Source: Clostridia bacterium (GTDB taxonomy: Bacteria > Bacillota > DSM-12270 > Thermacetogeniales > Thermacetogeniaceae). From it: a DNA stretch of 64,000 bases. The stretch covers positions 1 to 64,000 of the forward strand of contig CADDZD010000005.1 in NCBI GenBank assembly GCA_902812385.1. The letters are read 5' to 3'. The notes under the pieces were generated by a model that was not told the DNA's origin, searched no databases, and was given only the letters and a program-made list of their open reading frames with translations. This document shows, piece by piece, positions 58,993-63,252 of the stretch (the stretch's first letter is position 1; each line of letters opens with the position of its first letter). A program made the translations under genes and the position numbers.

Positions 58993-59023
58993 CACTCCAC
59001 CTCATTATATTGGCAAAATATGA

Positions 59024-59049
59024 ACCTCTCACCTTCATGGGCGAGAGGT
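59024..59049. other. Hairpin in the ileS leader
   Basis: ACCTCTC (59024-59030) and GAGAGGT (59043-59049) form a perfect 7-bp stem with a 12-nt loop, about 35 nt before ileS. On the plus strand it is followed by TTTTTA and on the minus strand by TTCATATTTT, so it might act as a terminator in either direction. Confidence 0.45.
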
Positions 59050-59122
59050 TTTTATCCTAATCCTCCCACTCTTTGTTATCTGCTCATAAAACTTTATCTC
59101 TTTCATATTCAACTTTGAAGTA

Positions 59123-59151
59123 ATTATACGGAATCTTACACTTTCCGTCAA
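59123..59151 (-). promoter_or_regulatory. Sigma-A promoter of ileS
   Basis: TTGACG (59146-59151) and TATAAT (59123-59128) are spaced by exactly 17 bp on the minus strand. Transcription would start near 59116, giving a leader of about 125 nt. Confidence 0.75.
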
Positions 59152-59235
59152 GGATACCAGGATTTTATCAGAGCCCACTCTCCCAGTATTTGTCAGTCTT
59201 GTATTCCAACAGCCACAAGGCTTCCAGCTACAGCA

Positions 59236-60478
59236 CCTGGTAAAGAGTGTAAATAACCCCTTTTCCCTAAATTACCTATTTTTTCAGGGAACATTTTCGA
59301 AGAATCTTATTTGTCATGGTGCCTGCTACATCCCAAAAAGTCGCCTTTACACTAGCTTGTGTCAAAGAGATACTGCGCCAGGCTCCTGTCCCTGATATAC
59401 TCCAGGGCGCTGCCTCTACCACCCTTTCCCTCGGGTCGGTACCGCCTCCGCAGGGTTGTTCCCAGGCATCTTTCCAGGCGTGGAAACGTTCTTCAGCTTC
59501 TTCATGGGAGCCTGCATAAAAGATGCGCTTGGCGTGGGCAAGACAATCTTTCTGGATTTTGCGGGAAAGTTTTGAAGCGATGTTCCGGAGCTTGTGGACG
59601 ACGCACCTCTGCACTTTGGCTTTTGGGAAGGCCTCGGTGAAGGCGCTTTCCAGGCCCGGCAGGCCGTCCATGATTCCCATGATTAAATGCTCTCCTTTGA
59701 AGCCCCGCCTTTTTAAGTCTTTGAAAAACTCCCTCCAGGAAGCTGAACTTTCCCTGTCTCCAAGCTGGACCCCCAGGATCTTTCTGTATCCGTCGATGGT
59801 GATGCCGGTGGCCACCAGAAGGGATTCCTTGCTCACCGTAAACCGCTTAACCGGCAGGTTTAGGCCGTCTAAGAAGATGTAGATGATGTTGTCTTCGATG
59901 GGCTGTTCGAGCCAGGCTCGCATCTCCTGGGTGAGTTGCTTGTTGATCCGGGAGATGGTGCCGGCGGAATAACCTTTGCCCAGCAGTTCTTTGGTGATCT
60001 TCTTCATTTTCCGGGTGCTGATTCCACCAATGAAAAGGTCGATGATCTGTCTGTCGATTTTCTCTTCTCTCCGCTTGTAGCGAGAAAGAACCTTTGATTC
60101 GAATTCGCCGTTGCGGTCTCTTGCTACTTGAATATCTTCAATCAAGCCAAACCTTGTGAGGAGATCCCGTTTGTAAGATCCGTTGCGGTTGTTATCCCTT
60201 TTGCCATTTCCTCTCTGTATTGCTCGTAACCAAGAAATTTGGTCAGTTCCTGCTTTATTGCTTCTTCCAAGGCATGTTTGATGAACTGCCTGATATAGAG
60301 GGCCAGATCGTTGATGAAAATTTCCTGTCCCCAGTTCTCGTTGACCTCGACATTCAGCATTTCTTTTGTTAAACTGTTTCCAAAGGTGTACCCTTCTTTT
60401 GGTTGTTTTTGGGAATTGTCTATATTTTGAGGGTACGCCCTTTTTTGTGGTTTTCCTTTTTACACAATTGATTTTAAG
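59236..60478 (-). mobile_element. Decayed IS256-family insertion sequence
   Basis: The segment contains a broken IS256-type transposase bounded by GGTAAAGAGTGTAAAT near 59239 and the inverted counterpart ATTGTGTAAAAAGG near 60456-60470. Both contain the TGTAAA core typical of IS256-family ends. The span of about 1.24 kb is close to full length. Frameshifts in the transposase indicate that the copy is inactive. Exact ends and a target duplication could not be fixed by eye. Confidence 0.7.
59276..60360 (-). pseudogene. IS256-family transposase, frameshifted
   Basis: The N-terminal piece (60142-60360) reads ALEEAIKQELTKFLGYEQY, then shifts frame at GCAAAAGGGA. The -1 frame continues the expected RNGSYKRDLLTRFGLIEDIQ into the second piece (59276-60145), with RDRNGEFESKVLSRYKRRE, the DDE-fold segment IFLDGLNLPVKR and GIMDGLPGLESAF. 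After about WKDAWEQ the C-terminal part no longer matches: the usual RTTN..RRRTR segment is missing. At least two lesions are therefore present. IS256 elements do not normally use frameshifting, so I treat this as decay. Confidence 0.8.
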
Positions 60479-60516
60479 CTACCTAAGTCTCGAAGCGCAA
60501 CACGAAGGGGCCTCCC

Positions 60517-60559
60517 GGCCCGCAAACCATTCTCCCGAAAGGAGGGAATGAGGCGGGCC
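60517..60559. repeat. GC-rich hairpin with GAAA loop
   Basis: GGCCCGC (60517-60523) pairs with GCGGGCC (60553-60559), enclosing an imperfect inner stem CATTC..GAATG around a GAAA loop. No T-run follows. It may be a mobile-element end or an RNA hairpin. Confidence 0.5.
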
Positions 60560-60581
60560 GGTTGGCCACCCCCCGAACGTT

Positions 60582-60710
60582 ATGGAAAAAAGCGACATAA
60601 CTGTTGATGAGCGTAAAGCGGTAACTGACGAGCTTGTTCACAAGTGGGCAGCCGAGATCAACGGATACCATCTCGCTATATGGCCGGCTTGGACGGATTG
60701 CGGACACTGA
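60582..60710 (+). other. Short coding-like relic
   Basis: A 42-codon ORF begins MEKSDITVDERKAVTDELV. Its composition is protein-like and amphipathic, but it has no good RBS and ends abruptly after about 32 plausible residues. The +1 frame then continues with protein-like sequence (YGRLGRIADTDDAHSYRLLS). This suggests a frameshifted gene fragment. I do not recognise a family. Confidence 0.25.
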
Positions 60711-60800
60711 TGATGCTCACAGTTATCGCCTCCTATCTCAACCTGAGCTTTGCACCAGGCGGGCCCCTCGCTGTCGGCGTGTTATTCTTGTTGCAGCCCC

Positions 60801-60832
60801 TTGACTCTCCCCCAGGGGGAGTCTTGTAGAAT
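60801..60832 (+). promoter_or_regulatory. MerR-family operator/promoter
   Basis: TTGACT (60801-60806) and TAGAAT (60827-60832) are separated by 20 bp, longer than normal. The spacer holds the dyad GACTCTCCCCCAGGGGGAGTC (60803-60823, key arms CTCCCC/GGGGGAG). An overlong spacer with this dyad is the hallmark of promoters twisted and activated by MerR-family regulators. It lies directly upstream of a truncated merR start. Confidence 0.75.
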
Positions 60833-60849
60833 AAAGCTGGAGGTCAGCC

Positions 60850-60921
60850 ATGGAAAAATATTCTATTGGGGTTGACAACTGCTACATAAAATATCCCTAT
60901 ATAGTTGCGTTTATGATATAA
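60850..60921 (+). pseudogene. Truncated MerR-family regulator start
   Basis: GGAGGT (60839-60844) and an ATG at 60850 start MEKYSIG, the typical beginning of MerR-type regulators, which usually continues EVAKLTGVS. Here the frame instead runs into unrelated AT-rich sequence and stops at 60921 after 23 codons. The break falls at about 60871. The upstream MerR-type promoter supports the identity. The remainder of the regulator is not found downstream. Confidence 0.5.
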
Positions 60922-60951
60922 TGTCTACATATAGCTCATATTCGATTAAGC

Positions 60952-60976
60952 GGGCCTTTAACCGCAACTACGGTTA
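60952..60976. repeat. Palindrome TTTAACCG-CGGTTAAA
   Basis: An 8-bp perfect inverted repeat (TTTAACCG / CGGTTAAA, 6-nt loop CAACTA) lies downstream of an AT-rich stretch in the relic region. It could be an operator or the end of a lost element. Confidence 0.4.
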
Positions 60977-61017
60977 AACGGTAATTAGACAATCTAAGCC
61001 AGCCCTTTATCCGCCGC

Positions 61018-61492
61018 ATGGCTCAGGCTGCTGACTTGCTCGACACAACGCAGCAGATGGATCGAGTGTATCAACTTATCACTGATGCCCTTAACAGTCG
61101 CTTGCGATGCCTTATTAGGAAGAGAAAATCCTGAATCCGATGATAAGCCACCAGAAGAAGATTGACGCGGTAAGCCTGGCAGGGGCATCGTGGCAGGGCC
61201 GGATTAGGCGCAGATTGTTAGATTACTGGAAGAAGCGCAGGATGTGATTGATGGCGCCGAGAAGTCTGGCATCAAGTTCATGAACAACTTCTCAACGGGA
61301 CCTACCAGCCGAAGCCAGTCCGCCGGGTCGAAATCCCAAAACCAGGAGGAGGCACGAGGCTCTTAGGGATACCCACCGTTTTGGACCGCTCAGATCCTAC
61401 AGGCACTATTGCAGTTACTCGACCTTGTAATCGCAGCGCAGGGAAAACGGAGAAATCGTTTTGCCCCACGAAGAGTGCTAACTCCTGCATGA
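61018..61492 (+). other. Coding relics, unassigned
   Basis: Positions 61018-61134 encode MAQAADLLDTTQQMDRVYQL and onward, then appear to shift frame to ACDALLGRENPESDDKPPEE. Positions 61208-61492 form one frame broken only by a TAG at 61364: before it lies QIVRLLEEAQDVIDGAEKSG and after it WTAQILQALLQLLDLVIAA. Both look like eroded protein genes, perhaps of a phage or plasmid. No family is recognised. Confidence 0.25.
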
Positions 61493-61500
61493 AAATCACC

Positions 61501-61536
61501 CCCTGAAAAAACAAAAGCCCTGCGCGGGGCAGGGCT
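61501..61536 (-). terminator. Terminator downstream of the aldehyde oxidoreductase gene
   Basis: On the minus strand AGCCCTGC / GCAGGGCT forms a perfect 8-bp stem with a 5-nt loop, followed by TTTTGTTTTTT. It lies 18 bp after the stop codon of the oxidoreductase gene. Confidence 0.9.
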
Positions 61537-61554
61537 ACGAAAGTTTAAGCTTTT

Positions 61555-63252
61555 TTATGCGTGTAACTCCTCACTTGTGATATCGAAAATTGCATTGTGT
61601 GGTGGAAGTGGTTCCCTGTACATAAATTCCGGCAATCGGTCATGCGCTTCAGTTATTCCGGCACGCTGGTTGAATTCTTTTTCTTGCTTCAAACATTCCG
61701 CCCCAATACTAAGCATTCCTTTAACGTCTAGTGAAGTACCATACAGAGCGTTCACCATATCTGCAAGATATTGCATATTTTCCTGCTTGTCAAAGCAGAA
61801 AAATACGAATATGCAGAGGCCAAGCGAATCCATAGTTGCCATCAAGGCTTGGAGATCCCTTGATAATGCAACCTGCCCTTCTTTTTTAAGGGGGTCCACC
61901 ATCGGGTTCCCCAATGTGTTTCCGGCTGTGTGATCCGCCCCCATGGGACTGGTCGCGTAAGTCACGCCGGTTCCCTTAAGCGCCCTGGGATCATAAGCCG
62001 CAAGGCTCTGGCCTTTTACCACCGGCACCCTTTTAGCGCCAAGAACTCTCCCTGTTACAGCTGCGCCCTGACCGAGGATTTTGCCAAGGTAAGTTCCTTG
62101 CATAATTTCTTCGACCAATTTCCTCTGTTCAGTAGGGTCGCCAAAGTTCGCCAGGCCCAACTCCATCGCCAAACCAATAGTCCCACCGGTTTCGATAGTG
62201 TCCAGGCCAAAATCGTCGCAAAGGCGATCCAGTTGAGCAATGGCGTCAAGATCCAGAACGCCGCAATTACCGCCCAGCATGCCGATCGTTTCGTATTCCA
62301 AGCCGGAGGTCAGGTAATTACCGTTCGCATCATTATAGATGTTCGAACACCTTATGACACAACCCGGTTGGCATGCGTGTCTTACGGTTCCTCCCCTGGT
62401 TTTTTGCAACTCCGCCAACTTCTCCCCGCTAATTCTTTCTGCCCTCTCGGAAGTACCCGCAGAGTAGTTCCGCGTCGGAAAAGTCCCGATGGCGTTCACC
62501 ATGTTGACCAGTACGGCGGTACCAAACGACGGTAAAGCTTTTCCCGTCACGGGGTTGTCACGGAGCGCCTTGGAAAGAGCAGCAGAGGCCTTTTTAAATG
62601 TTTCCGGATCGATCATTTCCAGTCTCCCATTACCCAGTTCATCAACGACTATCGCTTTCACTCCTTTGGAAGCCATCACGGCTCCCAGCCCGCCGCGGGC
62701 GGCATGCCTGGTCGGTTTTCCCTGCATGTCTGAAACAGCCACTGTCGAATTCGCATAACCTCTTTCCCCAGCCGGACCAGTCGATAAAATAGCCACTTGC
62801 TCGCCGTAAATGCTTCTTAAACGTTCAAATAGGGCGTAATTCCCCAGTCCAGCCAGCGAATCTGCAGCTTCCAAGGTTATGCTATGCGGGCGAATGACCA
62901 GAATCTTGCATTCAGGCTTTTCCGGGGCGTTCTCCAAAATTATTGCCTTAATCCCGTAACGAGACAACCTGTGGCCAACCGTGCCGCCAGCGTTGGCTTC
63001 TTTGATCCCGCCAGTGAGTGGGCTTTTTCCTCCCACGGAAATTCTCCCTGAACTCGAAGCCGAAGTTCCGCCCAAAATACCAGGACAAACGATAAATTTA
63101 TTCCGCGGACCGAGTGGTTCGCAAGCAGGGTCTACTTCCTCGTTTAAAATGCGGGCGATTAAACTTCTTCCTCCTGCTAACCTATATTGTTCGAGAACCG
63201 GTTCCTTTTTCACGCTTCCCGTGACTGTATCAACACGGATTAACCAACTCAT
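61555..63252 (-). CDS. Tungsten aldehyde:ferredoxin oxidoreductase family protein
   Basis: AOR-family enzymes bind a tungsten or molybdenum bispterin cofactor and a 4Fe-4S cluster, and interconvert aldehydes and carboxylic acids with ferredoxin. The 565-residue protein opens with the AOR_N beta domain (GGRSLIARILNEEVDP near 27, GRISVGGKSPLTGGIKEANA near 70). The cluster cysteines are in CQPGCVIRC near residue 300 and LGLC near residue 495. The first pair is spaced Cx3C, whereas classical AOR has Cx2C. The ATG at 63252 has GAGGTGG 6 nt upstream. The substrate is unknown. Its upstream neighbours are a truncated dehydrogenase and a TPP enzyme. Confidence 0.93.
   Translation of the reverse strand: MSWLIRVDTVTGSVKKEPVLEQYRLAGGRSLIARILNEEVDPACEPLGPRNKFIVCPGILGGTSASSSGRISVGGKSPLTGGIKEANAGGTVGHRLSRYGIKAIILENAPEKPECKILVIRPHSITLEAADSLAGLGNYALFERLRSIYGEQVAILSTGPAGERGYANSTVAVSDMQGKPTRHAARGGLGAVMASKGVKAIVVDELGNGRLEMIDPETFKKASAALSKALRDNPVTGKALPSFGTAVLVNMVNAIGTFPTRNYSAGTSERAERISGEKLAELQKTRGGTVRHACQPGCVIRCSNIYNDANGNYLTSGLEYETIGMLGGNCGVLDLDAIAQLDRLCDDFGLDTIETGGTIGLAMELGLANFGDPTEQRKLVEEIMQGTYLGKILGQGAAVTGRVLGAKRVPVVKGQSLAAYDPRALKGTGVTYATSPMGADHTAGNTLGNPMVDPLKKEGQVALSRDLQALMATMDSLGLCIFVFFCFDKQENMQYLADMVNALYGTSLDVKGMLSIGAECLKQEKEFNQRAGITEAHDRLPEFMYREPLPPHNAIFDITSEELHA

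Follow-up and report, generated by a model that had tools for sequence, protein, structure and literature searches.

The window, by which we mean the whole 64,000-nucleotide stretch of DNA analysed, contains a merR pseudogene made of three parts: codons 1–7 of the gene, a 68 bp left end of an IS607-family insertion sequence, and codons 239–297. We consider it very likely (probability about 0.93) that the locus arose by insertion of an IS607-family element into merR and a subsequent deletion. Its features are the following.

60801–60832, plus strand: MerR-type promoter, read directly, with the −35 element TTGACT at 60801–60806, a 20-bp spacer at 60807–60826 and the −10 element TAGAAT at 60827–60832.
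60807–60821, strandless: presumed operator, a perfect 7+1+7 dyad (CTCCCCCAGGGGGAG) inside the spacer.
60850–60870, plus strand: merR codons 1–7 (MEKYSIG), with the IS607 target GGG as the last codon, from the alignment to genome G032.
60871–60938, plus strand: IS607-family left end, 68 bp, from the match to copies in the same assembly.
60938–61113, plus strand: merR 3′ remnant, residues 239–297 with one internal TAA, from a protein search and blastn against G032.

PMC1526738 describes MerR-family promoters as carrying a strong palindrome within a spacer of 19 or 20 bp; in the window the spacer measures 20 bp and holds the 7+1+7 dyad. The preliminary description had taken these features as typical of a MerR promoter followed by a ribosome-binding site (RBS) and MEKYSIG, and all of these elements were found where it had placed them, with the RBS lying between the −10 element and the ATG at 60850. 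Over 60796–60870, 69 of 75 bases (92%; E 1.2e-24) agree with the intact merR gene of G032, in its promoter and first codons, a match not due to chance. At the same place, the dyad of the G032 gene reads CTCCCCCAAGGGGAA and is less perfect than that of the window.

G032 is another genome of the phylum. Its merR encodes a regulator of 304 residues (P0001) with a MerR helix-turn-helix domain scoring above the cut-off for both PF13411 (65.2 bits) and PF00376 (50.1 bits); this domain is deleted in the window copy. The best solved chains for the G032 regulator are SkgA, Mta and TipA; beyond its N-terminal domain, no Pfam family matched and no NCBIfam match reached the cut-off. The N-terminal MerR domain of the G032 relative and the 20-bp promoter spacer with its dyad are shared with long-type MerR regulators (SkgA, TipA, Mta, BmrR), from which the window copy differs in keeping only codons 1–7 and 239–297.

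The match to G032 stops at 60870. There the G032 protein reads MEKYPIG and continues with TLARKSG, whereas the open reading frame that starts at 60850 comprises only 23 residues, MEKYSIG and a further 16 residues read out of inserted DNA, and ends in TAA. The precise insertion junction proposed near 60871 is therefore confirmed at 60870/60871, directly after codon 7. That merR is cut at about codon 8 also holds, but the unrelated AT-rich DNA that was thought to follow is not open-ended: it is the 68 bp IS607-family left end, and merR resumes from 60938. The preliminary description, which called the gene decapitated, overlooked its tail: residues 239–297 are kept just downstream, and it is the middle that has gone.

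The identity of the inserted DNA follows from other copies of the element. The stretch from 60867–60869 onward recurs at five other sites of the assembly, with 100% identity in four of them and 98% in one (a sixth copy, on contig C60, is 86% alike and was excluded from the left-end counts). Over 60871–60930, all 60 bases are identical to four of the five closely matching left ends and 59 of 60 to the fifth. With 60 bp of the left end unchanged, the site illustrates cleanly the scar that an IS607 insertion can leave. Bases 60931–60932 differ from all five, and 60933–60938 match again. In the five other copies the left end is directly followed by tnpA (MKLSEWARKQGINYK...), which is whole in L006. 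The TnpA protein of this copy (1562–2134), the one scanned, yielded 212.7 bits against NF033518 (cut-off 110) and 69 bits against the resolvase domain PF00239. A second open frame in L006 begins at 2121, before tnpA has ended, and is the putative tnpB neighbour expected in this family; contig C129 encodes a TnpB C-terminus (NF040570, 176.4 bits).

All six close left ends, including that of the window, read GG followed by GTTGACAA. There are seven right-end matches, and the three closest, which were read at their ends, finish in GGTGGAACGG, with CGG as the last bases and different DNA beyond each. The GG at the left ends and the GGTGGAACGG at the right ends agree with PMC6188088, according to which IS607 inserts at GG and prefers (G)GG; the same paper reports that no target duplication is produced. 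In merR, codon 7 supplies the GGG target; the window copy shows its GG on the left side only, as its right junction is lost. An IS607 right end is absent from the whole window, in which the best candidate is an 18-base match (E 0.74). The element hence shares with the IS607 family the GG at its ends and, in other copies of the assembly, TnpA and the C-terminus of TnpB, but in the window it is reduced to a solo 68-bp left end without tnpA, tnpB or right end.

The 3′ remnant encodes a protein segment 81% identical to the G032 regulator (E 1.8e-23, protein search of the window's own genome, match at 60937–61113), and at the DNA level 150 of its 176 bases are identical (85% by blastn). Base 60938 fits both the IS607 left end and the merR tail; past residue 297 the window sequence diverges from G032. 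The 20 codons changed relative to G032 comprise ten synonymous and ten non-synonymous changes, the stop being counted among the latter, which is the pattern of a weakly constrained gene.

The locus is best accounted for by two steps. An IS607-family element would have been inserted at the GGG of merR codon 7 by its own serine-recombinase transposase. A later deletion, reaching from close to the start codon of tnpA, 60–68 bp into the element, to around merR codon 239, would then have removed the remaining IS607 body together with merR codons 8 to about 238 (∼231 codons), leaving the promoter and operator, seven codons, the solo left end and the merR tail. The sequence shows three joined parts, what each of them is, the GG at the junction and the lack of a right end in the window; from this we infer that the insertion came before the deletion, that the deletion was a single event and that the regulator function was lost. 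The order of events is not itself observed, because neither an undamaged nor an IS-only stage was found in any of the 19 other genomes of the window's class. Owing to the mismatch of 60931–60932 with all five left ends, the exact end of the deletion is uncertain: the break may lie at 60930, followed by a short filler, or else at 60938, two bases having changed later. Pseudogenes inactivated by insertion sequences, with an adjacent deletion, are well known in bacteria. The present case shares with them a gene cut at the end of an insertion sequence and the loss of neighbouring DNA, and differs only in the particular genes; it is ordinary gene decay, real and well resolved.

The middle of merR could also have been lost first, with IS607 arriving afterwards and only the element body being deleted later. 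Middle deletions of merR without IS607 do occur: genome G068 has two merR copies, both broken (L021 6196–8600 and L022 13715–14032), and the copy that shares synteny with the G032 locus runs from codon 14 straight into about codon 222–223. In the window, however, the left end abuts codon 239 directly with no right end between them, so that two deletions would be needed where one suffices, and we regard this order of events as improbable.

An assembly chimaera, in which unrelated contigs were joined via the repeated IS607 left end, is slightly less probable still. The left end is indeed a repeat, and the contigs of all five close copies end inside the element, after only 124 to 870 bases of it. 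The two flanks of the 68-bp left end are nevertheless parts of one merR gene, collinear with it and on one strand, which a random join would not yield and which makes a chimaera unlikely; moreover, joining via an intact element would not remove merR codons 8–238.

Least probable of all is that the promoter and the 23-residue frame form a real short gene, or that selection maintains the operator as a functional decoy: compared with G032, the promoter and RBS carry fewer changes (3 of 54 bases) than the coding remnants (29 of 197), and both broken G068 copies retain the promoter, one with two extra spacer bases, but the difference in change rate is not significant (Fisher p 0.10), and the peptide past codon 7 is read out of IS607 end sequence that precedes tnpA in five other copies. 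The promoter is slightly better conserved than the coding remnants, though not significantly so, and from its own ATG it can express only a 23-residue hybrid peptide. Conservation of the 23-codon frame in relatives, which would speak for a real gene, was not seen in a DNA search with 60560–60871 of 61 genomes (the own genome and 60 relatives). Matches were obtained in three of them, namely the own genome, G032 and G055, and that in G055 is weak (36 bases, ∼60718–60753, E 6e-4) and lies outside the frame. The upstream stretch also has a short DNA match on contig C47 (E 0.0025).

As the assembly yielded no intact copy of merR, the operator looks to be left without its cognate regulator. The preliminary description had spoken of an orphan operator and had proposed a search of the genome for a MerR regulator with a matching 5′ end. 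A recurrence of the merR 5′ part elsewhere in the own genome was rejected, as the genome searches gave no such match; DNA and protein searches of the assembly detected neither another copy of this merR nor the cognate regulator. The nearest protein in the assembly is a MerR paralogue on contig C31, which is 30% identical and whose promoter sequence differs by eye. Since completeness is 91.87%, over 172 contigs, an intact merR copy could be missing from the assembly. The history proposed here explains a puzzling orphan operator and keeps the 23-residue frame from being annotated as a gene; otherwise it adds little beyond annotation.

The regulator is rare. Of 398 genomes searched across the phylum, three gave it at E 1e-25 (G032, G068 and G187, the last with only 38% identity), a cut-off below which the window remnant itself scores. 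At E 1e-20, two of the 18 genomes in the G032 family and two of the 22 in the G032 class have it, and within the window's class the own genome only (1 of 20); the phylum, family and class genome sets overlap. No intact copy other than that of G032 was seen among the close relatives. The G068 copy outside the syntenic locus breaks off past about codon 146, where it is interrupted by DNA resembling a gene pair that in G032 lies ∼6 kb from merR. This pair encodes a PIN domain (PF01850, 45.4 bits) and a MazE-like antitoxin domain, whose score of 23.4 bits against PF04014 narrowly misses the cut-off of 24.7. One G068 copy also has a fragment of codons 7–18 joined to about codon 258 and starting at the GGG of codon 7. 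We rejected this scrap as a second IS607 scar: the DNA preceding it matches G032, and neither IS607 end gave a match there that exceeds chance (at best 14 bases in L021, E 3.6).

A scan of 13 genomes for the operator-promoter pattern, allowing up to three mismatches, returned only the three known loci, one each in G000, G032 and G068; the second G068 copy could not match because of its extended spacer. A scan of a genome contig collection with the intact MerR as query gave 19 pattern matches, none of which was confirmed as a relative. Matches to the MerR protein in plasmids (70 records) and phages (9 records) were all below 60% identity; these collections thus revealed no mobile element carrying this merR. 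It is conceivable, but in our estimate improbable, that merR behaves as a small travelling unit of promoter and gene, reaching distant lineages and decaying there repeatedly while its promoter survives, and that surviving operators might serve as titration sites or entry promoters. If true, this would point to selection on operators lacking regulators.

The pseudogene lies within a patch of genomic debris that extends from 59168–59169 to ∼61500 and contains, besides the merR remnant, unassigned DNA and the remains of two further genes.

59276–60360, minus strand: broken IS256-family transposase gene in two frames (NF033543, 248.7 bits on 59279–60145).
61282–61392, plus strand: group II intron reverse transcriptase fragment, 37 residues (TIGR04416, 51 bits, E 1.2e-13, under the full-length cut-off of 300).

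The IS256 frame at 60145–60360 has no family match on its own. The DNA at 59456–60483 matches G011 at 92%, and G011 holds close relatives of the IS256 gene (92% and 87%). Some 170 bases separate merR residue 297 from the intron scrap, which may span 61217–61410 on the plus strand, the part before 61282 looking by eye like another frame. A search of 59000–61600 against Rfam with E up to 0.5 gave no match. Beside ileS, two congeners, G001 and G002, match the window only as far as 59168–59169, just upstream of ileS; past this synteny break they carry a sodium:neurotransmitter symporter gene instead (PF00209, 131 and 122 bits). The downstream stretch has a 31-base DNA match on contig C118 (E 1.2e-4). 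The ∼125 bp at 59169–59293 have many repeats in G002, several of them at contig ends, and a few in G000; they probably represent one end of a further abundant mobile element.
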